This document shows positions 16,534-49,826 of a stretch of DNA of 64,000 nucleotides, piece after piece. The position numbers and the translations under genes are program-made. Each line of letters opens with the position of its first letter. Within the stretch, counting starts at the first letter, position 1. The stretch spans positions 140,618,223 to 140,682,222 of the forward strand of contig CM045761.1 in assembly GCA_025200525.1 (NCBI GenBank), written 5' to 3'. The notes under the pieces were generated by a model. The model did no database searches. It saw only the letters and a list, made by a program, of their open reading frames with translations, and was not told where the DNA came from. Source of the DNA: Camellia lanceoleosa. Taxonomy: Eukaryota; Streptophyta; Magnoliopsida; Ericales; Theaceae.

Positions 16534-18048
16534 TGTAGACTGCCCGAATTCGCTCCGCGCGCCCTCCTTCCGAAAAAGGTGCGAATTGGTCATCCTGCTA
16601 CTACAGTTCGGACTCCTGTTACGGTTTTGAATCTATTCTCACAAAGTGCAATGTGAGACTGATAACTCACCAAAGAGTCCAAATCCGGCAAATCGTTTTG
16701 GAAAATCGATTTTAATCAAAAAGTGCCAAACATGGACTGCTTTGCTAGATTAGAGAGTCGCCACGTAAATATTTTGTTTTGGGGAATTTAGGAAACCCTG
16801 ACTTGTGCCTAAGGGCACGTGTCCGTCATCACCAAAGTTGCCTCGGCTTGGGAACTCGGGTATGAGAGGGGAAGGTCCTGAAATGAGCACCCCCGCTCGC
16901 TCGATCAAAGGATCGGCCTCTACTAAGCATGATATGTTGTTTTTATAAACACATGTGTTCTTATTCTGATTATTAGCTAACTTACTAAGTGATGCACACA
17001 TCATACAAGTATAGACTAAGTCGCGAGACTTGGAACAAAACAATTCATGTTTGTTTTTCGAAAATGGTTTGAAAATGCCACCCGCTAGTGGGCTAAAGCG
17101 TGGATTTGCCACCCTCAAGATGGGCTTTAAAACAAGATTTGCCACTCCGCAAAGTGGGCTTTAAAACACACATTTATCGAATTGTTCCAACTCAAGCAAC
17201 AAAGCCTTCATCCACAAGCATTCATGCAGTTAAAGCAATTAAGCAAATAGCCTCATGGCAAGCATGCTAACATGGCAACACTTACACTCATGCAAGTATG
17301 CTAAAGCGTAAACACTTACAGTGTACTCCGAGCCAAAACAAGAAACTAGTTAGAAATCATGCATGATCCTAACTATGTTAACAATGCCTAATGCAACACA
17401 TGCAATTAATAGGCTCAGTTATCTAAGATGGCATATGAATGCAACACTTGATAACATGTTGTTAAACACGTATTCAAAGAAGTGTATTGAAATACAATGT
17501 AGTTTGAATGATGCGCCGAGCTCGGTGCATGCAATACAAATAAATGATGCATACATGCAAGCATAAGGTATGATAATTGAAATATTCCCCAATCTAACCA
17601 TCGAAAGCAGTTAAATAAAAGGGAGAAAGGCGTAGGGTTGGAAGACATACACACACACACGCACCCTTATTACAACATTGTGCCCTCGCGAAGGAGGGTT
17701 CGAATGAAAAAGCTAAGCTAATCTAGTTAAGCTAAACAACTAATCTAATTTAAACTAATTAGACTAATTATTACACAACACAAAATTGAATAACTACTAA
17801 ACTACTTACTAATTATTACATCACTTTAACTAATTAGCACACTAATTAATTAAATTACAAAACTAATGCTAATTAACACGCAGGGCATTAAACCACGCTG
17901 CCCCAACTCTGTTCGAGGAAGTAGAAGATGTATGCTCGGTTTTCACCCTGAAGAGCTCTCCGGTTTGCTCTTGAGAGGCTCTATTTGCAGGGTATCTCCA
18001 AGAACTTTTTGCTGAGCCTTACCAAAGGACTGTTGGGGACTACACCAG

Positions 18049-18180
18049 TGGCCTGCCGGCCATGAGAAGCTACTGCCGGCCATCTGCAGGCCAAAAAAAG
18101 GCACTGCCGGCAGAGAATGATGCTACTGCCGGCCAAGAATGAGGCAGTGCCGGCCATCAATGGGGCACTACCGGCCGCTG
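18049..18180. repeat. GGCC motif array 1, X1 LTR
   Basis: Seven units of the type CTGCCGGCCATCAATG, with spacers differing from those in LTR A. Confidence 0.78.
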
Positions 18181-20029
18181 GTGTGCTGCATCACCATGCT
18201 GGAACAGAGCTCAAGCAAAGGGAAATGTGAGAGTCTCCTAAGGGCATGTATGTACTGTGCCACTTCTTATCACCTCAAAACATCAAGGGAGGGGCACTAT
18301 TGGATCCAAAACCATCAATCAAGCATTTGGAATGCATGATGGCCAAAGATCCAATCTTGTACACATTTAATAAATCCACTACCTCATCATGGATGATCAA
18401 AGGCAATGGAGACAAAGGGGATTGGCTCACTTTCATTACTTTGAGTATGAAGTGGACTAAATACCTTGTGTTCAACATAACGTCCGGTTGAACACGATGC
18501 AATGCAAATAACATGCTATGCAAACAACATGCTAATCTTGGCATGTTTTACTTGATTGATTTTGTTTACATATTTTAACATTACCAACCATTCTTTAATC
18601 GGTTACGTCCAAATGTGAAAGTCCTCTAATGATAAGGGGTCAACCAAAAGAGGGGTTTAAGGCATGAGAGGGATGATGCCTTTGACTAGGAGGAACCCTC
18701 AAAAAAGGGTTAAAGGCGCTTGAGCACCAACCCTACCTCATGTTTAAACACAACCTTAAGACCAAACAACCCTCAATGCAAATTGAAGAATGAAGAAATG
18801 AGGGAGGTGGAAGCCATGCAATGCATGATATGGCATGAAATACAAGACTCTAACATGCAAACAATGCATGCACAACATGTTACGAGACTTAAGCATCAAA
18901 AACTAGTGAAGGACACAACACTAGCACCATGCAATACAATGCTCAAAGGACTAAACCAGCCTTAAACAGACCCCAAGCATGCCAAAGCAGTGGCCAAAAT
19001 GAGCTGAAATGACAGCATGAAAAACAAGAAAAAGCATGCTCAAATGATGGCTCGCAAGCAAGGCACAAAGCTCAACTCTCAAACACATTGAAAGAGTGAA
19101 AAATATGAAAGTGTGACTAAGCTACAAGCACAGAAATCATGTGTGAAATGATGCCAAAACATGCAAACTCCTCAAGCTTAGCATGTTAAAGACTTTGAAA
19201 CTGAAAACTAGTTAAGGCCATTTAAACTATAGGTATACAAAGCAATCCTGATATGACCTAAACCACTCAAAATAGAGTTAAAGCATGCTAAAACATGGGT
19301 AAAAGCATGCTGGAGTGTAGCCAAAATAAGCTAGAATGATGGGCTAAAGCATCAAGCACACAAGGCTAATTAGCAAGATTACACTACAAGTGTGAGAAGC
19401 ATGCATGAGGTGACTCAACTAGGCTAAAATAGAGTTACAACATGCTGAAATAAAGTCAAAAATAGGCTGAGATCAAGTCAAGTGATGGTAGAAAAACATG
19501 CTCAACAAGTAGGCCAACAAGACATGCAACCAAGAAGTGAAGAGGGAAGGCCGCCCCCTCCTACTTTGGACCTCAAAACATGGTTTCTACTATTGAAATT
19601 TCTCTAAGTTTCAGTGGTAGAAAGGCCAAACAAAGGATGCCTCAAAAGCCTTAAGAGATGTCACAAGGCTTAAGCAAATAAGGCACACAAGGGGGTGAAA
19701 CACCCCTAACTCCCACAGGGCCTTAAACAACCATTTTTAACACTTAAAAATAGAGATTTTTGTAGTTGAAAGCTAGGCCAAAAACAGCATGCAAGGGTGG
19801 CCAAACCAATGTACAAAAACAAAGCTTAAAGAGGTAGATTCTCACCCTTGAAGCACAACTTTAAAAGAGCAAGCAAACAGCCAACTTCTGAGCCAAAGTT
19901 ACTCCAAGGAGCTCCAACAAGGCCTCCAAGAACCTCAAGCCTAAGGTTAAGGTGTTTGGCTAAGGGTGTTAGTGCAAATATGAAGAGAAAGCACACTTTC
20001 AAGGCTAAAATGTAGAGAGAGAGGATTCT

Positions 20030-20060
<31 letters not shown>

Positions 20061-20111
20061 TTTAGCTCAGCCAAAATTTTTCAACCCCTTGCATGCATAT
20101 AGATGAGCCCT

Positions 20112-20119
20112 CTATATAG
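20112..20119 (-). promoter_or_regulatory. Candidate TATA box, X1 3' LTR
   Basis: CTATATAG (reads the same on both strands), about 350 bp from the U3 end, with a CT-rich stretch 50-80 bp downstream on the minus strand. The same arrangement occurs in the related LTRs. Confidence 0.55.
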
Positions 20120-20260
20120 GTGATACAAGAAGCCTTCAAAGCAATCTAGCCCTCCACGTGCAAACAGATGGGCTCAGCTATGCAAACATTTTCAACCCCT
20201 TGCATGCATATAGATGAGCCCTCTGTCAAAATATTTGCAAAAATATCTGTTAAAGCATTG

Positions 20261-20322
20261 GTGGCCGGCCGGCCATCAGTGATGGCTGGCAGCCCTTGAT
20301 CATGGCCGACAGGCCATCATGA
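20261..20322. repeat. GGCC motif array 2, X1 3' LTR U3
   Basis: GGTGGCCGGCCGGCCATCAG followed by GGCTGGCAG and GGCCGACAGGCCATC, about 145 bp upstream of the minus-strand TATA. Confidence 0.75.
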
Positions 20323-20471
20323 ACATCAAGATGGAAGGTAGGGTTTGGAAAGCTCAAACCTGGAGCATTCCGTCACGGAAGTCGAGTACTCGATGAGCAA
20401 TCAAACTTGTTGTTGGATGTACCTACAAGAACATCCAAGTCTCGAGGATGGTAAAAAATGAAGTGTCTACA

Positions 20472-20490
20472 GTTGCCACTCTTTGACAGA
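20472..20490 (-). other. X1 polypurine-like tract
   Basis: Minus strand CAAAGAGTGGCAAC immediately before TGTAGAC. X2 has CAAACAGGGGCAAC at the same place. It is a purine-rich but imperfect plus-strand priming site, as is usual for Ogre-type elements. Confidence 0.65.
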
Positions 20491-23066: not shown

Positions 23067-25300
23067 ATGGCTGATGATGTCTCACATGACGGGGCCCTCC
23101 CCACGCTTCCTCTGGTAGATTTCGCGGCCGAGCCGGAGGTCGAGCTCGAACCGTTACCACCGAGCATCCGCCCTTTTGGCCCAACGGGGTATCACCCCGA
23201 CACTCACATAGTGCCTGTTGCGGGAGGCATCAAGGCCTTCACTGATTTCCTCGAGGACGCGCCAGACGACCTTCTATTGAGAGAGTCGGCATCTCATTTG
23301 TAGGCCTTTGCCGTGGAGGTACAAACACTGTCTTCTGCAGTATTACCCTTAACTGTTTACATTTCTTGCACTGTTTTAATCTGATCGCATAACATGCCTT
23401 GATTTGACTATATCTAACTGTACTTTCATCACATGGTCTGATTACATCATCACATGCATTATCACAAAACGGATCCCGTTCCTTTCGAGGCTATGACACG
23501 ACTACAGCTCGAGATTGGTATGATGAGCTTCCAGCCATGGTCCGTGACATCGTCGACGGGACCGGTTTTAGTCTGTTTTGGTCCAGCTTGACCAGGATTA
23601 CAGCGAGCCGACCTATCTTGGGGGCTCTTGTGGAGAGGTGGTGGGATACTACCAACTCCTTCCATTTCTCTACTACGGGTGAGATGACGATGACTCCGTA
23701 CGACTTTGCCATGGTCATTGGCTTAAGTGCAAGGGGTAATCCGATCCCTCTCGATCCTAACATGGGAGAGTAGGAGGCTGCGTGGATTACACTGCTCAGG
23801 GCATGCCCACCGATCCTTCGGGTAGGGATGGTGAGATACAGTTGGTTCGAGGAGCAGTATGCTAAGGGCTTCCTCATGTTCCTTTTCGATACCACCTTGT
23901 TCTCAAACAGGTGGAATACCGTAGGCTTGTATCTGCTGAGCGCATTGGTGGAGCTCCGGCGGGTTCAGTTCTGCGATTGAGGCGGAGCCGGTCTCACCAC
24001 CCTGTACGGATACATGAGCTCGGCCTCTCAGATGAGTGGGACTTTGATCGGCGGCTACTGGCGGTCCTGGGAGGTACACAACTTAGTTCCCCCCTTTTGC
24101 TTTATATTTTCTGCTTTGCATTTCCTGCTTTAAATTTGTATATGTATTTTTTGTTCTGCATTCTCTGTATTTACTCAGACACTGCATGCTTTCTACTTTG
24201 CATTTTCTGTATTTGCTTAGACACTACATGCTTTCTGCACATAGCTCACACACGGTATTTCTGCTCATTCTACATATAACTCACATACTGTATTGATCTC
24301 ACCTTCCTTCTAGTTGTGGGTGTACGCATACTTCCTAGCTCTTACTCCAGAGCCTATAGAGGAGACCCCAGCCACAGTCTTATTTTCTCGGGTATACGAC
24401 GACCAGCTCCGTCGTAGGACCCGGGAAAACTTCATGTTTTTCCATGAGTACTTCGACATGGTCACGACACATGAGGTAACCCAAAACACAAGTTATTTTA
24501 CCTTTCAATCAATTTGATGTACACACTGATCAATTGACGGCGACTAATCAACTGTTCGTTCTCTGATTCTCAGATCACGTGGCAGCCATGGGACGCGATA
24601 CCATCAGGGCTGCGAGCTCAGTATGACATAGCCAAGGTTGTCTCCCATTGCCATATCCTTTTTGAGGGCCCGATCTGTCGCGCTTGGTTCTTAGGCGAGC
24701 ACTTCTCACACTAGACCTTGGGACTAGCTGCCCCATTTGTGTCGATGGCGCCTCCAGCATCGATGATGGAGACACACAGACTATCCGTTGACCTAGTGAT
24801 CTAGTTCATGGTCGGGCTGGAGGCAGACTTCTTCCGGGTAGATGGTGATTATGCGACCTTCATCCAGACACATCTGATGCCACCTCTGACCGGTGTTCGG
24901 GGAGGTGAGGGAGCGAGAGCTCCAGCTGCGAGACGGAGAGGCCGAGGAGCCAAAGCTGTCAGATCCTGTGGTAGGAGAGATTCTGGGGAGAGACAGAGAG
25001 CCGGATGGCCAGAGCTGCCTACCACACTGACTTGCTGGGGATGCCTCGGAGAGACTTATCAGATTCCCATAGAGCCCGCACCTACTGGTCACGAGCTTGT
25101 CAGAGTTCGAGGCCCGACCCCAGTATGTTCCATACTTTACATTTTGCACATTCAATTCATTTCAGTTATGCTTTACAAGCCGCCGATCATCTCAAAACAT
25201 TGACAGGCATTCATAGAGTACACCGAGCAGTCTCTCGAGCTAGCGGCTTCTCTAATGGGAATGGTCTAGACGAGCATGAACCTGCTCAGTCTTTACAGGA
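23067..25300 (+). pseudogene. Plant mobile domain (PMD) gene of X1, antisense to the element, broken and truncated
   Basis: Start ATG at 23067, right after an intron-like TCTTAG acceptor; X2 starts in the same way. Comparison with X2 suggests exons 23067-23318, 23468-24073, 24314-24475, 24574-25122 and 25207 to about 25300. Exon 2 carries the PMD core: ALVERWWDTTNSFHFSTTGE, MTMTPYDFAMVIGL, then MVRYSWFEEQYAKGF, NRWNTVGLYLLSALV and GGYWRSWE; exon 3 continues LWVYAYFLALTPEP. PMD proteins (aminotransferase-like, the MAIN/MAIL1 family) are plant proteins found in genes and transposons. Defects: TAG in exon 1 (23301), TAG after DPNMGE (23771), further stops near 23980, 24714 and 24801, and an AA instead of AG at the first acceptor. 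The last exon is lost in the deletion joining it to the LTR. Confidence 0.85.
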
Positions 25301-25815
25301 TTCTTGTACATTTCTTCACTTGGCACTTCAGGGTAGAAAGGCCAAACAAAGGATGCCTCAAAAGCCTTAAGAGATGGCACAATGCTTAAGCAAATAAGGC
25401 ACACAAGGGGGTGAAACACCCCTAACTCCCACAGGGCCTCAAACAACCATTTTTAATACTTAAAAATAGAGATTTGTGTAGTTGAAAGCTAGGACAAAAA
25501 CAACATGCAAGGGTGGCCAAACCAATGTACAAAAACAAAGCTTAAAGAGGTAGATTCTCACCCTTGAAGCACAACTTTAAAACAGCAAGCAAATAGCCAA
25601 CTTCTGAGCCAAAATCACTCCAAGGAGCTCCAACAAGGCCTCCAAGAACCTCAAGCCTAAGGTTAAGGTGTTTGGCTAAGGGTGTTAGTGCAAATATGAA
25701 GAGAAAGCACACTTTCAAGGCTAAAATGTAGAGAAAGAGGATTCTAGAGTGTAAGAGAGAGAGATTTAGCGCAACCAAAATTTTTCAACCCCTTGCATGC
25801 ATATAGATGAGCCCT

Positions 25816-25823
25816 CTATATAG
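25816..25823 (-). promoter_or_regulatory. Candidate TATA box, X1 5' LTR
   Basis: CTATATAG in the same context as 20112-20119. Confidence 0.5.
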
Positions 25824-25931
25824 GTAATACAAGAAGCCTTCAAAACAATCCAGCCCTCCACATGCAAGCAGATAGCCTCAACTATGCAAACATCTATCAA
25901 AACATTAGCAAAAATATCTGTTAAAGCATTG

Positions 25932-26055
25932 GTGGTCGGTCGACCATCAGTGATGGCCAGTAGTGCCTCATTGATGGCCGGCAGGGCCTATTGGTGGCCG
26001 GCAGGGCAAAGCCCATGGCCGGCAGCCCTTGATCATGGCCGGAAGGCCATCATGA
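25932..26055. repeat. GGCC motif array 2, X1 5' LTR U3
   Basis: Six units of TGATGGCCGGCAGGGC type. The left LTR of the same element has only about three units here, so the array has changed length since insertion or differs between the two LTRs. Confidence 0.75.
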
Positions 26056-26240
26056 ACATCAAGATGGAAGGACCAAGTCATGGTCCAAAAATGAGAAAGA
26101 ATGGATGCAGGGTTTGGAAAGCTCAAACCTGAAGCATTCTGTCGCGGAAGTCGAGTACTCGACGAGCAATCAAACTTGTCACTGGATGTACCTACAAGAA
26201 CATCAAAGTCTTGAGGACGGTAAAAAATGGGGTGTCTACA

Positions 26241-27346
26241 TATGCTCGGATTACTCTTTAGTCTGGGAATGATAGGTAGTGCTAAACGTCAACCTAGTGC
26301 CCAAGGCATTCTGTAGGCTCTGCTACAACCGAGCCATAAAGCGCGGAAATCTATCCGAAACGATGGTCACAGGGACCCCATGGGGCCAAACAATGTCCAT
26401 AATGTAAAGGTCAGCTAGAAAATCTATCGAGTCATTCGTGCTCATAGGTACAAAATGCGCTGACTTGGTCAATCGGTCAACTACCACCCAAATGGCGTCA
26501 TTATCCCATTGAGTCCTCGGAAGACCCACAAAAAATCCATCCTGACTTGTTCCCACTTCCACTTGACTATAGGCAAAGGTTATAACAAACCCGCTGGCCT
26601 CTGATGCTCGGCCTTCACTTGTTGACAAGTAAGACACTTCGACAGAAACACGACTACATCCTTTTTCATCCCCTTCCACCAAAATAGATGACTAAGGTCG
26701 TGATACATCTTTGTGCCTCCTGGGTGCATTGCGAGGCGTGAATGGTGAAACTCTCTATGTACTTCCTCTTGGCAAGACTCTGGCATGAAAAGACGATCAA
26801 TGTATCTAACAGTCGAGTCAGAATACACATTCAAGCCCTTCTTTACCTTTTGACTAGAGATCTTCTCCCGAAGGGATTCTACCTCAAGGTCACCCCTTTG
26901 TGCTTCTGTAACTCAGCTCACAAGTGTAGGTTGTGCAACTACCGAAAAAAAAACTGTAGACTCAATGGATTGGCCAAGATGGAAGTCAAACTCACTAATA
27001 GCATCCAACATCTCCCATTCTCGGATGGTAATACAAGCTACACTGCTAACGGATTTTATTCTCAAGGCATCGACCACTACATTGGCCTTCCCTGGATGAT
27101 AGTGCAACTCAAAGTCCTAATCCTCTATAAACTCCATCCACATCCTTTGCCTCAAACTTCTCACCATAAAGGTAATGCCTCTATATTTTCAAAGGAAAGA
27201 TTAAAGTTGCTAATTCTAAAGCATAGGTAGGATAGTTCCTCTCATGTATTTTCAACTAACGTGAGCCATAAGCTGCTACATTTTCCTCTTGCATCAAAAC
27301 ACAACCCAAACCTTCTCATGAAGCATCATAATACACAAAATAGCCC
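26241..27346 (-). pseudogene. pol: Chromovirus C integrase core and RNase H (part 2)
   Basis: Continuation of the chromovirus interrupted at 16533. Minus strand, in gene order: RNase H remnants (YYDASWEGLGCVLMQE, then MHYHPGKANVVVDAL at 26913-27107), integrase zinc domain (HHSRLAMHPGGTKMYHDL, then CLTCQQVKAEHQRPAGLL at 26580-26834) and integrase core (DNDAIWVVVDRLTKSAHFVP, then VTIVSDRFPRF at 26323-26682). Several frameshifts and stops separate these blocks. The segment between SDR and MLRGCVLDF spans the X1 insertion. The upstream end is cut by X2 at 27347. Confidence 0.9.
27342..27346. other. X2 target site, left copy
   Basis: AGCCC directly before the X2 LTR start. The matching right copy would be outside the window. 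Confidence 0.6.
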
Positions 27347-28939
27347 TGTAGCTCGACTTTTTCACGCCTCCTTTCGAAAGCTCGGAAATAAGCCCTATAG
27401 TTCGAACTCCTGCGGTTCTAAATCTAATCTCACAAGTGCAATATGAAATTGATAAACACCAAAGAGTCCAAATCTGGCAAATCTTTCAGAAAATCAATTT
27501 TGAATCAAATTGCCAAAAATGGACTGCTTTGCCAGATACAGAGTCGCCACCTATATATTTTATTTTGGGGAAATTTAGGAAACCCATGACTTTTGCCAAA
27601 GGCCATGTGTCCGTCATAACCAAGATTGTCTCGGCTCAGGAACTTAGGTACGAGAGGGGAAGGTCACGAATACATTTGAGCACCCCCGCTTGCCCGATCA
27701 AAGATCGGCCTCTACTAATCATGATATGATTTTTATCAATGTTATATGCTCTTGTTCTGGTTCATTAGGCTAGCATTACTATGTGATGTGCGCATACAAA
27801 GTATGGACTAGTTTGCTCGAATTGGAACAATTCAATTTCATGTTTGTTTTTCAAAAAGGGTTTGAATTTGCCACTTAACAAAGTGGATTAAAGTCTGTGA
27901 ATTTGCCACTTGGCAAAGTGGGCTTAAAGTCTACGAATTTGCCACTCAACAAAGTGGGCTTAAACATACATTCATTGAATTATTCTAATTCAAGCAACAA
28001 GCCTTCATCCATAGGCACTCAAATAGTTATAGCAAGTAAGCATTTAGCCTCATGGCAAACATGCTAGTAATGACAATCACTCACACTCATGCAAGTATGC
28101 TAAAGCACTAAAAACTCACCTAGTACTCCAAGCCAAGAAAAGAAACTAGTTATAAAAATGCATGTTACTAACTATGCGAGATGACTAATGCAACACACAC
28201 ATTATGCAACTAATAGGCTCGGCTACTAATATGGCATATGGATCGATTTCAATAGCATGCGGTCTAAGCACGTATTCATAGAAGTATTGAACTAAAAATG
28301 CAGTTAGAATGATTAACCGAACCTTGGTGCATGCAATACAAGATGAATGGATGCGAACATGAAGTATGCTAAACGAAACATGATGCCCCTAATCTAACCA
28401 TCAAAAGTAGATAAATAAAAGGGAGAAAGACATGGGGTTGGAAGACATACACATTATCACATTACGCTCTCACGAAGGAGAGTCTGAATGAATAAGCTAG
28501 CCAAGCCAAACTACTTAACTAATTATTACAAAACTTGAGTAAATAAATTAACTAACTATTTTAGGCTAATTAATTAAGAATTTAACTAGGCTAAGCTAAT
28601 TAAATATTACAACACAAACTAATTTAATTAATCAAAACTAATTAAATAAGCACAAAAACAACCCAATTAGCTACAACTAATTAATTACAACATGGATTAA
28701 TTAACTAAGTACAATACTTTACTAATTAGCTACAACTAATTAAGTACAACAAATAAATGACTAATTTAAACTAATTAACTAGTACGGGAAGCGAAGGAGG
28801 CCCATGCATGCTCGGTTTTCGCCCGAAGAACATCCACTGTTTTCCTGCTGTATGCCTCTGTTACACAACACTTACACTTTTTCCTTCTCCAGATCAACTC
28901 TGCCATGCTTCACAAGCACACTACTCAAAAATCACTGGT

Positions 28940-29025
28940 ATCCGACAGGCCAGAAGTGGTGACCGTTGCCGTCCAACACTGATGACCTGCCAGCTAGTAA
29001 CAGTTGTCGGCCGACCATTGGTGAT
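28940..29025. repeat. GGCC motif array 1, X2 LTR
   Basis: Weak, degenerate copies (GACAGGCCAGAAGTGGTGACC, GTCGGCCGACCATTGGTGATG) at the position where the related LTRs have clear arrays. Confidence 0.55.
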
Positions 29026-30393
29026 GCACAATTCCAGGCTACAACAGAGAGCAAACAGGGCAAATAAAGGGTATTCTCACAGATTGTTTGTATTGTATAT
29101 CCCTCATTATCATCAAAACATCTCAAATGAGTGATACACTTGGTCCTTAAACCATCAATCAAGCAATTTCATTGCATGATGGCTAAGGAACCAATGTCTA
29201 CAAGTTCAATAAATGAACAAACAAGACCAAAACCATCACCCTATCATGCATGATCAAGGGCAATGGAGACCTAGGAAGCTTGGCACATTTCATCACTTTG
29301 AGTATGAAATGCCCCAATTTTCCTTGTGTTCAATTAACGTCCGATTGAACACACCAAAAAACAATCGAATTCTTATCTTGCATAACTTTAGTTTCCAATT
29401 TTGTTTACTCATTTTAGTTTACCAACCATTCCTTAATCCAATTAATTCCAATGGTGAGTTGAAGTCCTCTAATGGAAAGAGGGATAAAAAACACAAGTTT
29501 CTTTAGGTATGATTCATACCGTTGGTACATGAACCCTAGGTGATTAAACCATTAAGTATGAAACCTTAATTTCAGGCTTAGGCAAACAAGTGACTTGAAA
29601 CCACTTTCAAAGAAAAATAAAAAGCCAAGAATGGAGGGAGATTATAGAGGCGATTAATGTTGAAATGAAGTATGAAAAGCCCAAAATAAGTGCTCTCAAC
29701 TCAAATAAGTGATGTCTAAAGCCTAAAACATCAAGCTTATGAGGACTATAACACTAGAAGCATGCAAAACAAGACTCAAATACAACAACCAACCCAAAAC
29801 AGAATTAAAACAGTCCAAAATAGAGCCTAAAACATGCTGGAATTAAGCTATAACAAGCTAGAAAAATAAGCTAACACATAGAGGTATCTAGGCTAGCAAA
29901 CAAGACACAAGGAGGGGAGACTAACCCCTCCAAATTTAGACTTCAAAACATGATTTTTACCACTGAAAATACTCTGAAATTCAGTGTTCAAAAGCCCAAA
30001 AAAAGATGGTTTGAAGGTGGGAAACAAAGGTGGAAAAGCCTTACAAGCAAGGAATAAAGAAGGATGAACCACCCCCTAACCTTAAATGGCCTAAACCATC
30101 AATTTCAGCCCACAAAAAACAGAGTTTGATATAGCTCAAACCAGCCCAAAAAACAGTGGGAAAAGATATAAAAGCAAGTATGCAAAACAAGCTTAAAAGA
30201 CAAGTATTACACCTCTTGAAATAAAGATCAACTTTAGGCAATAATTCAAGCCAAAACCACCTTTAAGAGCTCCAAGAAAGCTTCAAGGAGCCTCAGCTCG
30301 AAGATGATCAACTTTGGTTAAGGTGGTGTAGGCAAAAGTGTGATGTATGTAGGCTAATGTGCACAAATTTGCAAGAGAGTGAGAGAGAAATGT

Positions 30394-30425
<32 letters not shown>

Positions 30426-30465
30426 TCCAAATTTTCTAACCTTCAAAAATGGAGGAGGAAACGCC

Positions 30466-30475
30466 CTATATATAG
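30466..30475 (-). promoter_or_regulatory. Candidate TATA box, X2 LTR
   Basis: CTATATATAG, a perfect palindrome, with CT-rich sequence downstream on the minus strand and two GGCC motif units (30551-30600) upstream. Confidence 0.55.
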
Positions 30476-30780
30476 AAAAACATGCATTTAGTTGAGATAA
30501 ATCCCTCCATACACGTGTAGGGAGATGAAGCCAATTGTGCCAACATCTGGAACACCAGTGATGGCCGACAGCCTCAATTGGTGGCCGACAACCACCAGGG
30601 GTTGCAGGCTTGAAGGTTTTGGTCCAAAACAAGGCATAGAATGAATAGGGTGTGAAGACTCAAAGACAGGGCATTCCACCGTGGACTTCGAGCATTAAAA
30701 CGAGCACATATAGTCATAATCATTGAGTGCACAAGTGATGGCATCCAAGTCTTGAGGACAGTCAAAATGGGGTGTCTACA

Positions 30781-30800
30781 GTTGCCCCTGTTTGACAAAA
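30781..30800 (-). other. X2 polypurine-like tract
   Basis: Minus strand AAACAGGGGCAAC immediately before TGTAGACACC, the usual pattern in Ogre-type elements. Confidence 0.7.
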
Positions 30801-31214
30801 CTCGAAACTCATGAAATGACGTGAGTGAATGTCAAAGCCTGAAGACGACCCATTTTGACAATGCCGAAGACTTGGACAAACAAACAAGACAGAAAATAAA
30901 TGGTTGCGCCCGGAGGCTGCCTACGTAATCAAACCAGCGTAGTTCTGGGGCGATTCAAATGATAAGCATGCAAAGCAGTTTGAAGATTAAACTTACACAC
31001 TTCGCGAAGCCAACCATGTTGAAAACTCATGATCATGCGAGATGATGTAATAAGCAATAAGAGATGCGATATGCGATATGCAAGATAACAACATAATAAG
31101 CAAGATAACAACACATAAATGAGCAACTTTAAGCGTAAAACCAACATTACGCAAGAAGAACTAAAACATATTCTAACCATACCAAAACAAAAGATGAGGA
31201 AAGAAAACACCACT

Positions 31215-31590
31215 CAGGGTTGCGTTTCACGCATCCTGAGAAACTGAAAAAACCACTCGGGATCGCGTTTCACAAGTTTCGAGAAACTGAAAACCGCTCA
31301 AGGTTGCGTTTCACGCATCTTGAGAATCAAAGAAGACCGTTTGAGTCCACGTTTCACGTGTCCCGAGATGAAACCCACCTAGGGCCGCATTTCACACGTC
31401 TTGAGAAATAACCACTCAGGCGTGTACTTCGTACGTCCTGAGGTAAAACCCGCCCAAGGCCGCGTTTCACGCATCCTGAGAAATAACCACTTAGGCGCAT
31501 ATTTCGTACGCTCTGAGGTAAAACCTGTCTAGAGCTGCATTTCACGTGTCCTAAGAAATAACCACTCGGGCGCGTACTTCGTACGTCCTA
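31215..31590. repeat. X2 internal minisatellite, unit about 43 bp
   Basis: About nine units based on GTTTCACGCATCCTGAGAAA, then alternating with GTACTTCGTACGTCCTGAGG. The sequence is unrelated by eye to the X1 array at the same place. Confidence 0.83.
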
Positions 31591-31604
31591 AGGTAAAACA
31601 ACAA

Positions 31605-31715
31605 AGGGGCGTGCGATAGATGCACGAAGGTAAACAAGTGCGATAGATGCACAAAGTGAATGAGTACGATAGATGCACAAAGGTGAACAAGTGCGATAGA
31701 TGCACGAAAGTGATG
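31605..31715. repeat. X2 second minisatellite, unit about 27 bp
   Basis: Four units of GTGCGATAGATGCACAAAGG plus a short spacer. The central GTGCGATAGATGCAC has complementary ends. Confidence 0.85.
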
Positions 31716-31779
31716 TGTGGCACGAATTAAAGGAGTATGCTCTCCTACCGAGACATGAATGATCTTAGCCAGAACTCCT

Positions 31780-31890
31780 CTAAATAAACTATACATACAA
31801 TATCGTGCATTTCTTCGAATGAACCGTACATACAATATCATTTGCTTGTGTTGAATGAACCATACATACAATATCGTGCATGTATAAGAA
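31780..31890. repeat. Three copies of a CATACATACAATATCGTGC unit
   Basis: GAATGAACCATACATACAAT units at about 31785, 31820 and 31855. X1 has one copy (21877-21900), so this is an X2-specific triplication. Confidence 0.8.
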
Positions 31891-32334
31891 AAAAAACTTA
31901 ACAAGTGCGATATAGTAACTGTGATACAATGTTAATCGAAAGCATGTTCTACGTGCAACAAGAACGGATGCATATTCTATGCGTGATTCATAACGGATGC
32001 AAGATGCGCATGTAGCATATATGAAATGCATATCTCATGTAACAACATATGTGAAATGCATATCTTATGCCGCAAAATGAAATGCATATTCTATGCAAGG
32101 AGCAAAAGCATAATTTGACAAAAACAAATTCAGTAGCAACTTCTGATTTACCTTTCGGAAGAGTTTCAATATGTCTAAAGGATACACCTCGTTCATGTTG
32201 ACAAATGACGAACATTGTGCACCGAAAACATAGTTTCAAGCTTCCATAGAGACAATCTGGTCCCAACAGTGAACTATCCCTACACCTCTTGGAAACCAAG
32301 GACACAAAACTACATCAGGACCGCAAGGGAAGCC

Positions 32335-32430
32335 ACTGGCCACTTGTCGGCCACAAGAGGAGGCTGCCGGCCACCAACCGGCCTTCAATAACTGTTGCTA
32401 GCCACAAAAGTGGCCTACCGGCCACCCGTG
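32335..32430 (+). repeat. GGCC motif array upstream of X2 PMD gene
   Basis: Five units such as ACTTGTCGGCCACAAG, GCTGCCGGCCACCAACCGGC and CTACCGGCCACC, ending about 40 bp before the TATA-like box. Confidence 0.75.
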
Positions 32431-32467
32431 GCAGATTCGAGGCAATTTTGTCCTTTTGCCTCGGGTC

Positions 32468-32480
32468 TTTAAGTATAGAG
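32468..32480 (+). promoter_or_regulatory. Candidate promoter of X2 PMD gene
   Basis: TTTAAGTATAGAG, in the same context as 22698-22708 of X1 (GCAnTTTnGTCC before, TTTCTCTCTAG after). It drives the plus strand, opposite to the LTR promoter. Confidence 0.52.
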
Positions 32481-32837
32481 CTTCGCACTTCATTTCAACA
32501 CAACCCCACATCCGAAATTCTTCCCTCTCTTTCTCTAGGTACTTCTTCTCTCTAGATCCGGGCTTTCTATACATTTTCCAATGCTCCACGTGAAGTTTAT
32601 TTGCTAAACCCTCTTTGTTTACTCTGTTTTGAACCAATTGAAATTTGATTTCGGTGCTTTTTCTTGGACTTTCACCACTTGAGGCTTGTTCCCCTCAAGT
32701 TTCTCTTGGGTTTTGTGCCTTTTCTCGGGCTTTGACTCTTTCTTCCATTTTCTCTCTCGTAAGGTTGACTTTTTCAAAGTTTGCCCTTTTTCCTCTATTT
32801 TTCTCCATTTTGGACCACTTTCTCATCTTCTGTCCAG

Positions 32838-35800
32838 ATGGCGGATGATATTCCTCATGACAGAGCTCCCTTCGAGATTCCACCCCATTTATCACCTCCG
32901 GCAGAGATGGAGGTCGAGCCCGAGCCCAAGATATTACCGCTGGAAGTACGCCCCTTCGATCCGGCGACATACCATCCTCGGATACATGTACTGCCACCCG
33001 GGGGTATCAGGCACTTCAAAGAGTTCGCGTGACGCGCAGCAGAGGAACTCTTGCTACGGGAGCTGGACTCCCATTTGTCTCACGGTGCCACCGAGATATA
33101 CACTATATTCTCATGTTTTCTTCATTTTTGCATTGTATTTCTTGCTTTAACTGTATTCATTGCTTCAACTGCACGGTTACACTGCATTTCTTGCCTCTTG
33201 TTGAATTTCTTGCCTTAATCATACTCTTGCACTGCATTTCTTACACTGCCTTTCATTTGTCTGTTCTCATATTATTGTATATCACTGTTCTGATCACAGG
33301 AGGACTCTCGTTCCATCAAGGGGCTATGGAGCCACGTCCGCGAGGGACAGGTATATGGAGCTCCCCACCGATGTATACTACATCATTGATGAGGCCAACT
33401 TTGGCTTGTTCTAGACTGGGCTCTCACACCATATTACGAGCCGACCACTTCTTGGTGCATTAGTGGAGCGGTGGTGGGATACCACCAACTCCTTCCACTT
33501 CTTTATCGCTGGGGAGATGACGATGACTCCTTACAACTTCTCCATGCTCACAAGCATAGGAGTAGGGGGTGATTCGATCCCCTATGACATGGACATGGGC
33601 GAGTGGGAGGTCGCCTGGCTTCCTCGTTAGGAGCACGCCCAACTCTCTTTAGACCAGCCATTGTCCGCTATAGCTGGTTTGTCGAGCACTTCCGCGGGGG
33701 AGAGCCAGAGACCCCAAAGGAGATTGAGCACTACACCCGGGGCTTTTTGATATTCATCTTTGGTACCACCTTGTTTGCAAACAGGTGGAACACCGTAGGA
33801 CTGTATCTACTAAGCGCTCTAGTGGACTTACCTCAGGTCCAGCTCTATGATTGGGGAGGAGCTAGCATTGCCACACTATATGGCTATATGAGCTCGACAT
33901 CCCGCAAGAGGGGAGACAGGGTTGGAGGCTATTGGAGAGCCTGGGAGCTATGCTTTACATTTTTGCTTTACATTTCCATCTTCTATTTCTGTGCTTTCTG
34001 CGTTACACTTTCTGTACACCGTATATTGTATTCTTTACATTTGTACTTTCTATACACTGTACTTTCTACATCGCTCATTCTGCATCCTCTGTATTTGCAC
34101 TATTTATACACTGTACTACACATTCTGCTTTCTGTATTCTACATTCTGCATTCTTTGCATTTGTACTTTCTATACACTGTACTACACATTCTGCATTCTG
34201 CATTCTGCATTCTCTGCATCTGCACTTTCTATACATTGTACTACACATTCTGCTTTTTGCATTCTGCATTCTCTGTATCTATACACTATATACTTATTGT
34301 TTCCTTTTCCTTGCAATTTTGGGTATATGCGTATTTCCCGACCCTCGCTCCGAAGCCGGAGGTGGAGATGCCCCCCATTGTGTCGTACTCTCATCAGTAC
34401 GATGACAGATACTGCGGAGGACCCGGGAGACCTTCTCATTCTTCCGCTGATACTTCGACACAGTGACTGCGGGAGAGGTAACCCAAACTCACAGTTATTT
34501 TTGCTTTGTCAACAATGGAAGACGACTAATAATCTGTATATTCCCTGTTTGCAGAGCCTTGGGCATTGATGTCGGCTGGAGTTAGAGACCAGTATGCCGG
34601 AGCCTGGGGGGCCTCCCATTTTTGGCTTCTGCTAGAGGGCCCAGTTTGTCGAGCATGGTTCTTAGGGGAGCGATTCGTGCACCAGACCATGGGTTTGCCT
34701 GAGCCGCTAGTTCCCATGACGCCTCCAGTATCTATGAGGGCTATGGAGAGCCTCTTCTTCCAGGGGATGATCCAGTTCACGAAGGGTTTGTATGCCGACT
34801 ACTTTTGCGGGGAAAGAGATTATTCGACATTTATCCAGACACATCTCATACCTCCCTTGTCAGGTGCCCATGCAGGCAGAGCAGTAGTTGCCCCCATAGC
34901 AGGTAGGACCCGAACGACGGAGACCAGGACTGGAGGGGCCCCTCCCGCTGGACAGGTCAACGGTTGGCCAGAGGTCCCGACCATGTTGACATGTTAGAGG
35001 CCAGCCGGGATGTCCTACCAAATTCCGATCAAGTCAGCAGAGGCCAAGCACAGATACATCCGAGCTCATGACGCACCTTTGGTATGTACCACATTTTGTT
35101 CAGTTTTTCATTTTCGTTTTGATATTTGTTCCTTCTGGATACTGATCGTTCCCAATACATTTATAGGCACCCCTGGAGTATACTGAGGGACTACTTGAGG
35201 TAGTAGCTTTGTTCAAGAGCATGATACTAAGGAGGAAGGCACTGCTCAGTCTTCATGGCATTTAGGTATTCTTCCCCTATTTTCTGCCAGTATTTCATCA
35301 TTTTCCACACTCTTGTGTATATCATTGTCACTGAGGCATGGATACTCATATCACGTCATGCATTTTGCCCCTTTTCACATCACACTGATATACTGCACTG
35401 ACACACTGTACTGTAGTTGTATTGTGTCCGGCTCATTGCATTCCACCACTTTCATTATACTGTATTTGCAACTGCACATTGTATCTGATATTCCAACACT
35501 GTATATTTTCAGGTTCTAGCCATACCGAGAGCACCAGTAGCGGCGACTGCACCTGCACCATCACCACCTTCTTCAACAGCAATGGGGAGAGAGAGACGGC
35601 CCCTAGTACGTAGCCGAGAGGAGCGTCGTGGTCGAGGCTGGAGGAGCCCCTCGGAGCCAATGTTGAGTGATGACAATGTTGAGACCAGTGGCTCCGGGAG
35701 GCAGTGAGTCTATAGTCTGAGTCCACTAAGAGTGGAGATGACAGTGGCTCGAGATCTGAGAGTGAAGGTGATGTTGAGTCAGGCTCTGGAGCAAAGTGCA

Positions 35801-35907
35801 GCGATGATTTCGATTCTGGCTCGGTATCTGAGTCGTACAGCGGCGCTGATGGTGATAGCTCTGAGTCTCCATCCAGGAAGAGGACAAAGAGGGCCTCTCA
35901 AGCCTGA
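32838..35907 (+). pseudogene. Plant mobile domain (PMD) gene of X2, antisense to the element
   Basis: Start ATG at 32838 after a CAG acceptor (MADDIPHDRAPFEIP; X1 begins MADDVSHDGALP). Exons inferred from X1 and splice signals: 32838-33095, 33300-33947, about 34317-34477, 34555-35081, 35167-35265 and 35513-35907, about 690 codons. Exon 2 has the PMD core: RWWDTTNSFHFF, GEMTMTPYNF, then RYSWFVEHFRGGEPETPKEI, NRWNTVGLYLLSALVDL and YDWGGASIATLYGYMS. The last exon encodes a Ser/Asp/Glu-rich acidic tail and ends SPSRKRTKRASQA, a likely nuclear signal. Defects: TGA after HFKEFA (33030, from CGA), frame breaks in exon 2, lost GT at the exon 1 and 2 donors and CAA for CAG at the exon 3 acceptor. A nuclear role is likely for the family; the function in the element is unknown. 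Confidence 0.86.
33955..34310. repeat. Repeats in intron 2 of X2 PMD gene
   Basis: Four to five units built from CATTCTGCATTCT, TTTGTACTTTCTATACACTG and TACTACACATTCTGC. The X1 intron holds similar but fewer words. Open frames here are repeat artefacts. Confidence 0.75.
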
Positions 35908-36601: not shown

Positions 36602-37166
36602 ATGAATTCATGGGGTTTTGGCATAAATGCTCTTTTCCCATTGAGTCGTTCTCCACTTTGTTTTCTGTTCCTCTATGCCGCAGCTAGGTGTTGGAACCCA
36701 ATTACACATGTCTTTAGCTTCGGGGGACAAGAGATATGCCTGACAATCGAAGAATTTCAGGCACTAATGGAATCCCGGCGCAATGAGGAAATCATACCTG
36801 AGCCTCGTTTCAGCCACATCCAAGCTTTGGGATGGATGTGTGGGCTCACTCTACACGAGGGTCGATCTTTGGTCCATAATAGAGTTGGATATTCCTAGTC
36901 TAATTCATCGATTTTTTGACTCCGGTGACCGCGATGACCTTCTTTGGCGAAGTTTTAGGCAACATGCCCTTTGCTTATGTATGCTGGCTTATTTCTTTCT
37001 TACCCCTAGTTTCGGCGGGTCCAACATTCGATTAGTCGAAGTGGCACAAAGCTTGAAAGAAGGCAAGAGTTGCATTGGCTTGGTGCTAGCCGAGACTTTG
37101 ATGGGCTTAGATGCCATCCATCGGCGAGAGACTGTCAAATTTGCAGGGAGTCCACTACTTCTGCAA
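36602..37166 (+). pseudogene. DUF7745-like gene of X2, exon 1
   Basis: ATG at 36602 (MNSWGFGINALFPLSRS). Motifs: CWNPITHVFSFGGQEICLTI, EEFQALMES, then after a frame slip near 36875 LWRSFRQHALCLCMLAYFFL, LVLAETLMGLDAIHRRE and GSPLLLQ. This pattern (TIEEF, a long helical stretch, a nuclear-type fold) I recognise from TE-associated plant proteins annotated, I believe, as DUF7745 and related to PMD proteins; the family name is from memory and unchecked. It ends at a CTGCAA|GTAATG donor. The gene is antisense to X2, downstream of the PMD gene. The intron has been filled by E3. Confidence 0.72.
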
Positions 37167-37269: not shown

Positions 37270-37673
37270 TGTGGAGAAGTGGTTTGGAAATACTCTTCAG
37301 ATCCTGGGAGACGCTGGTGATCCTCAGCTAGTCACCTGAAAAGATGAAAACACTCCGGTCGGGGGTGCCAGAATTAGCACTTCGATGGACAAGTTAGTTC
37401 AGACACTCAAGATAGCTTCTTGTCTAAGTTAAGGGGAGTGATTCTTACATACCTTTCTAGATTTGTGCTTCTTGCATTTATACTTACTTTTTTGGGCCTT
37501 GGGGCCTGAGCCTACTTTTATCCCATTCACCTTATATTCATTCGGACCTACTGACCCCCTTCTATTCGGCTCCACTAACGCATTCGGCGCCCTTGTCATG
37601 CAATACGAGGCCGAGTAGCATCTAGTTTCTGGGGTAAACATCTCCCGGCTCTTCCACTTATTCGGCTCCCACA
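37270..37673 (-). repeat. E3 3' LTR (404 bp)
   Basis: TGTGGAGAAG at the start and CGGCTCCCACA at the end; near-identical to 49827-50230. The ends are inverted repeats (TGTGG/CCACA). Confidence 0.96.
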
Positions 37674-37686
37674 ATTGCCCTCCAAG
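37674..37686 (-). other. E3 polypurine tract
   Basis: Minus strand CTTGGAGGGCAAT directly before the 3' LTR; purine-rich, moderately convincing. Confidence 0.65.
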
Positions 37687-38028
37687 CGCTTCACTGACGA
37701 CAGTTGGCTGGAGTGCTTGGTTTTGAATTTCGAAAGGTCAGAGCCAAAATTCGGCGGCTGGCCTCATCGTCATGCAGATATCTAAGCGCACTCCTTTCGG
37801 TTGTCGTGTCGACTTTTCCCCCTTCGCGCATGTGTTTATTTACTGCGATTTAAAATTTTGACATCCTTTCATGTATCTCGTGACGCTCATCACTGGGTTA
37901 TCTTTTGGATAGTCCCTGCAACTCTGTTTTCCGATATCCCCTTCGTCCTTTGTAAGTTCTCTCCTCCTTTGCTTTGAAGACTTTTCTGGTTTGTTCCTTC
38001 CTTGGCATATTCTCTCAAACTGTAGGAC

Positions 38029-40124
38029 ATGGCGAAACATCTGAATGACCTCCTCTCGTCAGATCGAATCGCTGGCTTTAAACGCCATTTCTCCATTCCT
38101 GTTGATGTCCGTCTATCGCTTGTGGCTGACGGCACTCTTGATATGGAGAGGGAGGACGAAACCACGATTGTCTTTCCCTTTTTGTCAATTGCAGAGGGTG
38201 GAGTCCGTTTCCCCCTTTACCCGTTTCTTAGGGCTGTGCTTCGCTATTGGGGTTTAATCCCCTCCCAACCTAATGTAAATTTCTTTAGAACCATAATGGG
38301 GATTGTAGCACTCAACCGTCGCCTAAGAATTAACCTTGGCATTCCAGCCATCCGGCATTGCTATGCCTTGGCTAAGTTTTCTGGTCGGCACGGGCGTTTC
38401 TTCCTTAGGGCCAAGGATATTGATCATCAGCTGATTACTATGCTTTCCAGTTCTGGAAAATGAGTTGATGACGTTATGGTCGTTGTCCAGGGTAACTGGG
38501 AATTTGGCGAAGGAGAGGATCACGTCGACCCTATTCCCAGGCGGAGGGGCGAGCCAAGTGGCTGATTGCCTTCTTGCTTTTATTATTTGTTCGTTTTTAT
38601 TGTGAAGCCTCTTCTTTGAAATGTGACGGCTTGCCTTGTGCGGGGAGCATTTTGAAGAAAGTTCTACCTTCAACTGACGGCGCCGTTCTTTCGGACATAG
38701 AAGTCACACTCAAATATTTCGGCCGTCAAAGTCTTCAGAAACAAGGTAGGTCGGCGCATATTCTACTTCGTTACGAGCCGACATATACGACCTTCTCGGC
38801 GGTGGAAAATATCCCCGTTATGGAGGGCGAAGATTCTCTTATCGCTCTTATTTTGTCCAACTTCATAAACTTGAGGCAGGTTGGATTTGAAGGGTCCGAT
38901 TCAGAGCGGGAAGTAGCTAATGTTAGCGAATCAGATTAGTCTGAAACCAAATCTGACGAGGTATTAAATTCGGCCGATCCCCCATCCACCTTGGGCTGAG
39001 GGGATCTTTCACTTGACAGCGTTGTTCACGGTTTGGAAAGTATTCCCGCCGCAAACCCCAAAGACATGGCAGGGCTAAGCCTGACAAAACTTGCCAGGAA
39101 GGCGAATGCGGAGAGGTTGGCTGCGTGACAAAGAGCGGAGGCCCTTCCGTCTGAAATACCGCCCGCCGCCGAATCTCAATTCCCCCTGTCTGTTAGCAAA
39201 TCAAAGTTCGTGCGTGTTGTGGTGGAAATGGCAGAAAATTGGAATGCCGAATCTGCTGTGATCGTGCCGGCTAGCCAAAAAGTTAAGGCAGAGAAATGCC
39301 CTGCCGAGTTTGAGGCTGGCTCAGAGGAACACGGCGGCAAACGTCCCCGATTAGAGGGATCGGATGTGATCGTTCCTTTTGTCATTCAGCCGACAATAAG
39401 AAACATGCCGGTTTCTTCTGATGCTTCGGTGCTTAAAGATCCAGAAGTCGCATTCAGCTTGGCCACGTCCGTGTCATTGCTGTCTGACAATGAGGCTTTC
39501 CGGGTGGAAACGGATCTGAATGCGACAGCACTAGCCGCCCAATCGACGCTTTTGGTACGTATTCGAACTTATCTTCACTTAATCCAAACACTGTTGAAGT
39601 TAAGGTTTTAAATGCTTGTTTTGCAGACCGTCGGATGGATAGCCGATTTGGGCCATCACCATCGTGACGCCGTCAAAGAGATTGGCCGTCTACGCGAGGA
39701 TCTTGAAGGCCAGAGGAGAAGGGCTGGGGTCGAGGCTTTGAGGGCGAATAAGGAAGCCTCAAGGGTCGATGCCGAGATGGAGAGGGCTCGTAGCGCCGAT
39801 CGGTTGAGATCGGATGCCGAGAAGAGAGCGGACGCGAGCGAAGATGTGCTCACATTGGCCCAAAAGGCGATCTCCAGACTGGAGGCTGGGTTGGCTGAAA
39901 TGAAGGCGGCGAAGGAAGCCGTCGACTCGGAGTCTTCCAAAGTGTTCGAGGCTGGGAAAAATGTTGTTCTTTCCGAGTACGTTAACCAAGTCCCCAAGTT
40001 TGAAATTCGGGGATTCAAACATGGCTGGCGCAAGGCCCTTGCTACTACTAACGCTTCGTTGATTATGCCAATACCATATGAGCAAGTGGATGTTGAGCCA
40101 TTGGAGTCTGATTCTGATGGCTGA
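38029..40124 (+). pseudogene. E3 antisense extra gene 1 (gypsy-type transposon domain plus coiled coil)
   Basis: ATG at 38029 (MAKHLNDLLSSDRIAGFKRH). The N-terminal part has GGVRFPLYPFLRAVLRYWGL and IPSQPNVNFFRTIMGIVAL, the pattern of the 'putative gypsy type transposon' domain seen in extra genes of Tat elements. TGA replaces Trp at 38461 and again near 38562. After frame changes (38574-38939), an acidic segment leads to 39210-39554, a 72-bp intron 39555-39626 (GTACGT ... TTTTGCAG, phase 0) and a C-terminal coiled coil rich in Glu/Arg/Ala ending FEIRGFKHGWRKALATTN and a stop at 40124. It is antisense to gag-pol. Function unknown. Confidence 0.8.
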
Positions 40125-40324
40125 TCCGGCCGACTGACAGTTTTTAGGATGTCGAATATGCTTTTACAGTTTTTACTTTAGTATTTTTCATCTGTTGCTA
40201 CAGTCATGAGTAAATCATTTTGTTTAGTAACTTGAGTATATATAAAAGATTTCATGAGTTGTGCTCAACTGGTTAAGGAAAATGTTGAATGCTATTGTTT
40301 TCGGTTGTGGTTAGATCAGCTGCT

Positions 40325-41425
40325 TAATAACTCTGCCCTTGCCTTGGCCAGGTCGCGAGCTTGGGAAGCTGAATGGGCCTAACTCGTGGGCTGGCTAAGG
40401 CACAGATTGATCCGCCGTTAAGATTAACAAATATGCCCTTGCCTCAGCCAGGGCGCGAGCTTGGAAAGCCGAATGGGCCCAACTCGCGGGCTAGCTAAGG
40501 CATAGATTGATCGGCCGTTTGCACTTGAAAACTCGGCCACTAAGATTAATAAATCTGCCCTTGCCTTAGCCAGGGTGCGAGGTTGGGAAGCCGAATGGGC
40601 CTAACTCGCGGGCTGGCTAAGGCACATATTGATCCGCAGTTAAGATTAACAAATATGCCCTTGCCTTAGCCAGGCCGCGAGGTTAGGAAGCCGAATGGGC
40701 CCAACTCGTGGGCTAGCTAAGGCAGAAATTGATCCGCCGTTAAGATTAACAAATCTGCCCTTGCCTTAGCCAGGGCGCGAGGTTGGGAAGCCGAATGGGC
40801 CCAACTCGCGGGCTGGCTAAGGCACAGATTGATCGGCCGTTTGCTCTTATAAACTCGGCCGCTAAGATTAATAAATCTGCCCTTACCTTAGCCAGGGCAC
40901 GAGGTTGGGAAGCCGAATGGGCCTAACTCGCGGGCTGGCTAAGGCACAGATTGATCGGCTGTTTGCTCTTATAAACTCGGCCGCTAAGATTAATAAATCT
41001 GCTATTGCCTTAGCCAGGGCGCGAGGTTGGGAAGCTGAATGGGCCTAATTCGCGGGCTGGCTAAGGCACAGATTGATCGGCCGTTTGCACTTGAAAACTT
41101 CGACGCAAGATTAATAACCGCTTGCCTTAGCCAGTAGCGAGGTTGGAAATTTGTCGAATGGGCCTAACTCGCGGGCTTGTAAGGCACAGATTGATCGGCC
41201 GTTTGCACTTGAAAACTCGGCCGCTAAGATTAATAAATCTGCCCTTGCCTTATCCAGGGCGCGAGGTTGGGAAGCCGAATGGGCCTAACTCGCGGGCTGG
41301 CTAAGGCACAGATTGATCGGCCGTTTACACTTGAAAACTCGGCCGCTAAGATTAATAAATCTGCCCTTTCCTTATCCAGGGCGCAAGGTTGGGAAGCCGA
41401 ATGGGCCTAACTCGCGGGCTGGACA
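40325..41425. repeat. E3 array 1: about 10 units of 101-121 bp, each a foldback
   Basis: Each unit has CCTTAGCCAGGGCGCGAGG and, about 40 bp on, CTCGCGGGCTGGCTAAGG, which pair with each other (10 bp plus 6 bp with a 2-bp mismatch). Long units add GATCGGCCGTTTGCACTT and AAACTCGGCCGCTAAG. The array follows antisense gene 1 directly. Confidence 0.92.
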
Positions 41426-41560
41426 GTTGTCATCTGACTGTTGACGTTTGGGAATGCTGACGTTGCCTCGGGAAAGCTGCAAACATTGAAGGAGAAATAG
41501 AGCGGGTGCACGCCAGAGGCCCTACTTATTTCCATTCAGGCAACTGGGAAGGGACGAAGA

Positions 41561-42358: not shown

Positions 42359-42539
42359 AATTTCTTTTCTTTTCAACATTCGTATTTGGTCTTGAAATGT
42401 TTTGTGTTTAATTAATCGTATTATTTCATCTTTCTGGCAAGTTTTGTGTTTGTATGGCGTAAATGTTTAGACATGCATTGACCGGTCTGAATTAAGAATG
42501 ATTCTTATTGGATATTTATTCGGCCAATCAAATGGTCCG

Positions 42540-45325: not shown

Positions 45326-45412
45326 ATTAAGGCTTGGGGGCGAGCTTGCGAAAATGAGAAACTTTGTATTACAAAAGTGGAACACGTACAAGTATCAAGC
45401 CCACAAGTCGGG

Positions 45413-46498: not shown

Positions 46499-46648
46499 GC
46501 ATTCCTAATATAGACCAGAGAGGGACTTTTTGTAAAGCCCTCCTTGCAGATCCAGATAGTATCGCAGGGCTTTATTTCGCAGCTTGTGCGCTTCTTTTTT
46601 GTCCTTTGGGAGTTGTTCGGAAGAGAGGAATGCAGCGATGGGGTCCAT

Positions 46649-48339: not shown

Positions 48340-48351
48340 TGTATTGGAGAT

Positions 48352-49824: not shown

Positions 49825-49826
49825 GT

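Follow-up and report, generated by a model that had tools for sequence, protein, structure and literature searches.

Antisense, intron-containing PMD and DUF7745 genes in Ogre-type retrotransposons of Camellia lanceoleosa

A multi-intron gene carried by a retrotransposon normally loses its introns through RNA, yet the elements described here retain intron-acceptor sites at thousands of places. We examined them in a 64-kb stretch of DNA (the window, C4:140618223-140682222) from the 3.0-Gb genome of Camellia lanceoleosa (Theaceae, Ericales), and all genome-wide searches were run in the same genome. The window is a nest of LTR elements (Table 1), two of which, X1 and X2, belong to a single Ogre-type family and inserted separately. 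In both, a plant mobile domain (PMD) gene lies on the strand opposite to the element, as judged from the LTR start and the polypurine-like stretch to the left of PMD, which read on the minus strand.

X1 is flanked on both sides by the halves of a chromovirus-like integrase. It lacks gag, pol, PMD exon 6 and all but the start of its 5' LTR, and PMD exon 5 passes into the 5' LTR remnant within about 20 bp. Because the two LTRs of X1 differ in length, a deletion after insertion fits better, and the candidate explanation that X1 is a mobilised short element was rejected on these unequal lengths. X2 runs in the order 3' LTR, polypurine-like stretch, repeats, PMD (+), DUF7745 (+) and integrase (-), the last of which presumably has the look of an Ogre integrase; RT and RH of X2 were not found within the 64-kb window. 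The 3' LTR parts of X1 and X2 align at about 65%, and LTR lengths of 3.9 kb (X1) and about 3.4 kb (X2) fit the long LTRs, up to about 5 kb, of Ogre elements (PMC6317226), a feature that is typical of Ogre and not exclusive to it. The Ogre primer binding site pairs with tRNA-Arg (PMC9289625); this site has been lost in X1 and lies outside the window in X2, and in a related element, X4, TGGCGACTCTGCTGGGGA adjoins the LTR as a candidate site. Both X1 and X2 are dead copies. At the left end of the window (1-6959, +) there is also a chromovirus-like element with long open frames and 179-bp end repeats that are 97.8% alike.

Table 1. Features of X1, X2 and the nested element X3, in positions of the window
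Feature	Position	Strand	Remarks
X1 whole element	16534-26240	minus	between TATGC target duplications
X1 target duplication TATGC	16529-16533 and 26241-26245		inside chromovirus-like integrase
X1 3' LTR	16534..20471	-	ends TGTAGAC...GTCTACA; 3.9 kb
X1 polypurine-like stretch	20472..20486	-	adjoins 3' LTR
X1 PMD gene	23067..25305	+	exons 1-5; exon 6 lost; in-frame stops
X1 PMD exons	23067-23318, 23468-24073, 24314-24475, 24574-25122, 25207-25305	+	
X1 5' LTR remnant	25327..26240	-	914 bp, start of 5' LTR only; meets PMD intron 5
X2 3' LTR	27347..30780	-	about 3.4 kb; left end by similarity only
X2 polypurine-like stretch	30781..30795	-	adjoins 3' LTR
X2 PMD gene	32838..35907	+	six exons; stops and frameshifts
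X2 PMD exons	32838-33095, 33300-33947, 34317-34477, 34555-35081, 35167-35265, 35513-35907	+	
X2 DUF7745 exon 1	36602..37166	+	one frame change
X2 DUF7745 exon 2	50279..50791	+	beyond nested Retand; limits counted by hand; stops inside
X2 integrase C-terminal part	51629..52114	-	cut at 52115 by another Ogre-type LTR
X3 Retand	37270..50230	-	nested in X2 DUF7745 intron; target duplication TACAT, 5 bp
X3 Transposase_28 ORF	38026-38460	+	antisense to X3
X3 pol	45656-49884	-	belongs to X3

A sequence-only reading of this DNA had claimed homologous antisense PMD genes in X1 and X2, with common exon borders and adjoining pol. The genes and their borders stand, and their limits were right to within a few bases, but the adjoining pol does not: X1 has none, and the pol nearest to the X2 gene is that of a nested Retand element, X3. 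The PMD gene consists of six exons and five introns, all of phase 0, and the borders correspond one to one between X1 and X2. For each of the four introns shared by the two copies, the alignment was better than that of any of 60 dinucleotide-shuffled sequences; noncoding mismatch rates were left out as a neutral yardstick, because shuffled sequences align at nearly as low rates. Splice dinucleotides are kept at 8 of 9 sites in X1 and 7 of 10 in X2. The matching GT/AG sites reported earlier hold in both copies for introns 3 and 4 only, whereas for introns 1 and 2 sites have been lost, namely the intron-1 acceptor in X1 and the intron-1 donor together with both intron-2 sites in X2. The Pfam check proposed at that time gave a match of X1 to the PMD profile PF10536 at 60.2 bits (cut-off 34.9), and two X2 pieces scored 30.8 and 27.5 bits, each singly below the cut-off. 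Two outcomes had been named beforehand as counting against the gene, no profile match and its absence from all other full-length family members; neither was found.

Both PMD copies are pseudogenes, with in-frame stops in each and frameshifts also in X2. The differences between them amount to 32, 22 and 51% at codon positions 1, 2 and 3, with a dN/dS of 0.23 (Nei-Gojobori, 510 codons, 46 left out). The last exon of X2 encodes a serine-rich and acidic region with a basic stretch at its end, a putative nuclear signal. A protein search with PMD returned 145 proteins, and among the 120 listed, those with a named organism were all from Camellia; searching with an alignment of PMD relatives gave 185 proteins, and the 120 listed included two from Rhododendron vialii at 35-38% identity. 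Against PF10536, the Camellia relatives P0001 and P0016 scored 107.2 and 113.3 bits. When ten Camellia proteins were compared by eye, some, such as P0001, continued across the PMD exon joins of X1 and X2. Fold prediction gave two structures with mean pLDDT of 32 and 50 and no usable model, a fold search in the PDB gave no fold match (best E 1.6), and a scan of viral contigs gave 123 pattern matches and 0 relatives.

X2 holds a second antisense, intron-containing gene, which the sequence-only reading had not mentioned and which we assign to DUF7745. The X2 exon-1 pieces gave no match to the DUF7745 profile PF24924, which does match three of its relatives, P0123, P0128 and P0144, at 37.6-43.2 bits (cut-off 26), with no match for P0138. 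X2 DUF7745 aligns to P0123 at 64%, with 100% of the query covered. In two of 218 proteins compared, P0138 and P0099, both from Camellia annotations, PMD continues into DUF7745. The idea that PMD and DUF7745 are recognisably homologous was rejected (hhalign Prob 0.2, E 0.31), although the PMD profile did give scores, below its cut-off, on three of the four DUF7745 proteins scanned.

The intron of X2 DUF7745 is the site of X3, whose assignment to Retand is borne out by PF04195 (30.1 bits, cut-off 26.2) and RVT_3, the second RNase H (68.4 bits). Its antisense Transposase_28 frame is placed between pol and the 3' LTR, as in the Retand lineage. The pol in this region was also considered as X2's own; this was rejected, as the LTRs and target duplication of X3 enclose it. 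In X3, gag seems to be missing, dense tandem-repeat arrays lie at 42557-45322 and 40324-41422, and the antisense region is made up of several ORFs (38026-40121) and may contain introns too.

The same arrangement was then followed across the genome. A search with PMD exon 2 gave 23,668 first-look candidates, of which 150 were scored, and the 20 places ranked directly after X1 were taken as the PMD-chosen sample. Exons 1 and 2 are apart in all 20 copies, and exons 2, 3 and 4 in 19, the other copy, L028, being without exon 3. Canonical splice dinucleotides were found at 98 of 115 sites scored by script, where a few of the misses are script offsets. The 3' LTR start lies upstream of PMD in the orientation of X1 and X2 in 17 of 20 copies (three of these are short matches), DUF7745 lies beyond PMD in the same orientation in 18 of 20, and the integrase is opposite to PMD in 15 of 20, that is, in 15 of the 15 copies showing one, and on the same strand in 0. 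All 17 copies whose exon-1 match starts at the first residue have an ATG there, and in 10 of these 17 a TTTAAGTA box, a candidate promoter element, is located 356-367 bp upstream of it. The first 52.5 Mb of contig C1 contain 70 PMD acceptor sites, and 10 of these have a same-strand DUF7745 acceptor 2.8-6.8 kb downstream; an upstream DUF7745 acceptor occurs at 1 PMD site and one on the opposite strand at 0, and 1,000 circular shifts gave at most 4.

These data bear on the reading that the PMD genes are ordinary host genes beside which Ogre elements inserted by chance. Many of the Camellia entries listed are indeed named MAIN-LIKE or MAINTENANCE OF MERISTEMS. However, X1 sits between 5-bp target duplications, PMD acceptor sites occur in thousands, and most of the 20 copies repeat the LTR start, DUF7745 and the opposite integrase with comparable spacing. 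We find this reading hardly credible, as it is already contradicted by the repeated arrangement.

Elements were also chosen independently of PMD. An integrase search gave 53,388 first-look candidates, 150 of which were scored; the candidates listed after the window's own were 85-88% identical to the query and mostly stop-free, and five places were picked down this ranked list. DUF7745 is antisense to the integrase in all five, and PMD is present in one. Other family members do carry PMD, as in the 20 PMD-chosen copies, but the gene is not universal: it was not found in four of the five integrase-chosen elements (L029, L030, L031 and L033). In these four, only 2.0-2.4 kb separate DUF7745 from an LTR start upstream of it, and this interval holds no PMD match. 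DUF7745 is therefore the steadier member and PMD the variable second gene in this small sample of five integrase-chosen elements. The four elements without PMD come from a large, mostly stop-free integrase group and possibly represent a younger PMD-less Ogre subfamily.

This variability, with PMD in one of five integrase-chosen elements, is in line with another reading, in which PMD and DUF7745 are host-gene cargo captured by a DNA-level rearrangement and carried without use to the element; so is the finding that all 20 PMD-chosen copies are broken, with exons 1-4 all unbroken in 0 of 20 (a sample chosen by similarity to a broken query). On the contrary, place, strand and exon borders are the same in X2 and most of the 20 copies, and there is constraint between diverged copies, so that we regard unused cargo as improbable.

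Next, intron retention was examined by matching spliced-junction and intron-acceptor patterns against the 3.0 Gb, a processed-copy test that requires exact matches and misses diverged copies. The acceptor pattern of PMD intron 2 occurred at 4,359 places (2,182 and 2,177 by strand; reversed control 0), whereas the spliced exon-2/exon-3 junction gave 0 matches in 3.0 Gb. This test is not blind, because, judged on the 20 copies, the patterns would recognise a spliced form of 9 and the acceptor form of 11. The spliced exon-3/exon-4 pattern, which would recognise 4 of the 20 copies, gave 2 matches, and in both the intron is present and its acceptor is altered. The DUF7745 acceptor pattern, present in 5 of 26 copies examined, occurred at 4,773 places, and the spliced pattern at 2, both intron-containing on inspection. 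The spliced patterns of the three introns thus gave 0, 2 and 2 matches, and all four matched places keep their introns. The antisense arrangement and the retention of introns are genuine features found widely across the C. lanceoleosa genome, and the pattern counts support the earlier proposal that the antisense placement protects the introns. Counting retained introns in this way turns a logical expectation into an observation. The intron-containing form also bears on how PMD entered retrotransposons, because capture of an mRNA would bring no introns.

Coding constraint was assessed on exon 2 in 21 copies (the 20 PMD-chosen ones and X1). The dN/dS comparison of further copies, as had been suggested, gave a median of 0.17 over the 210 pairs (range 0.10-0.40), a value that depends on the yardstick: in the six close pairs with a value for both, divergence is 0.03-0.26 in introns and 0.21-0.31 at exon-2 synonymous sites. 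Introns change less here, which makes synonymous sites a fast yardstick by which dN/dS may come out too low. The 500-bp leader differs by 0.09-0.20 in five close pairs. Mismatches in exon 2 reach 13.7, 10.8 and 31.5% at codon positions 1, 2 and 3, and transversions 3.4, 2.0 and 7.1%; because the pattern holds in transversions alone, it is not only the result of cytosine deamination. In the copies L009-L028, the slower divergence of introns perhaps comes from methylation-driven change in GC-rich exons.

The asymmetry between codon positions also bears on whether the antisense transcript itself acts. It would pair with genomic RNA and supply 21-24 nt siRNAs that keep the element in check, and the frames would be leftovers of a captured gene. 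Such a role was raised for antisense ORFs in general by Vicient and Casacuberta (PMC7264820), and in tea 175 PHAS loci lie at PMD genes, most of which have very limited expression (PMC10673657). An action through RNA only predicts no codon-position asymmetry, but the asymmetry is there and holds in transversions, and long open proteins persist in the Camellia annotations; we therefore consider it rather unlikely. The tea PHAS loci may belong to the same elements as those described here. These elements offer a source for the numerous PMD genes that annotations of tea relatives contain, and perhaps for their PMD phasiRNA loci too.

Overall, we consider it probable that Ogre-type elements carry antisense, host-spliced PMD and/or DUF7745 genes that keep their introns and whose proteins regulate the element in trans. 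The accessory region lies on the strand opposite to gag-pol, in the interval from pol to the 3' LTR, and comprises a PMD gene of six exons, a DUF7745 gene of two, or both. The host would transcribe this region, probably from an element-internal promoter located about 360 bp before the PMD start codon, and would splice and translate the antisense transcript. Genomic RNA is read from the other strand, which lacks these splice signals, so that the introns go through reverse transcription into every new copy. The PMD and DUF7745 proteins would most likely be trans-acting nuclear accessory factors that regulate the element. Points that weigh against this reading are the broken state of all 20 PMD-chosen copies, the four integrase-chosen elements with no PMD match, a dN/dS whose size depends on the yardstick, and the lack of a fold match. 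RNA of the PMD gene is predicted to be complementary to the element's transcript, because the gene strand is opposite.

Both PMD in Ogre elements and antisense 3' ORFs in their relatives are already published. PMD-bearing Ogre elements were reportedly described by Steinbauerova et al. in 2011. PMD is carried by 57% of Ogre elements (PMC6317226), no extra domain was commoner than PMD when 121 genomes were screened (PMC9289625), and the PMD-A clades are exclusively Gypsy-encoded (PMC5418596), with which the location of the X1 and X2 genes in Gypsy-type elements agrees. Domain and lineage are thus the same as in the Camellia elements, but the available parts of PMC6317226 and PMC5418596 describe no multi-exon gene and no DUF7745 beside PMD. 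Extra ORFs were called in PMC6317226 as uninterrupted stretches of at least 250 codons. The largest PMD exon has 216 codons, so a screen at 250 codons sees at best pieces of the gene (a 292-codon frame in X2 runs through intron 2), and screens for long uninterrupted ORFs in general may catch only pieces of such spliced genes. Within the literature searched, DUF7745 went unmentioned and no account was found of antisense genes with introns in plant LTR elements, and the available part of PMC11152179 holds nothing on an antisense spliced arrangement. Intron retention at thousands of places and the PMD-DUF7745 pair were not found in print, and the spliced two-gene form is the new part.

Among the known systems, the Retand, Grande and RIRE2 elements likewise have antisense coding regions in the interval from pol to the 3' LTR, where tandem repeats are frequent (PMC7264820, PMC11963269), and X3 is one such element, but their protein domain, Transposase_28, differs; the word 'intron' occurs 0 times in the main text of PMC11963269 and PMC7264820. 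The host PMD proteins MAIN and MAIL1 act in silencing (PMC5418596, PMC7156037). They have the same domain but are host genes, whereas the Camellia copies lie in mobile elements at thousands of places. It is conceivable, if unlikely, that the antisense-encoded PMD proteins of the element disrupt the silencing pathway that the host bases on its own, related MAIN/MAIL1 proteins. In that case PMD and DUF7745 would form a spliced two-gene counter-silencing module, and phasiRNAs directed at PMD transcripts would be the plant's response.

A further comparison is offered by HBZ of HTLV-1, a protein unrelated to PMD, with a promoter in the 3' LTR that finds no support in the Camellia elements. In principle, HBZ and the other deltaretroviral antisense genes are alike to the genes described here, being antisense protein genes of an LTR element, and spliced antisense transcripts are known from HTLV-2 to -4 and their simian relatives (PMC8622228).
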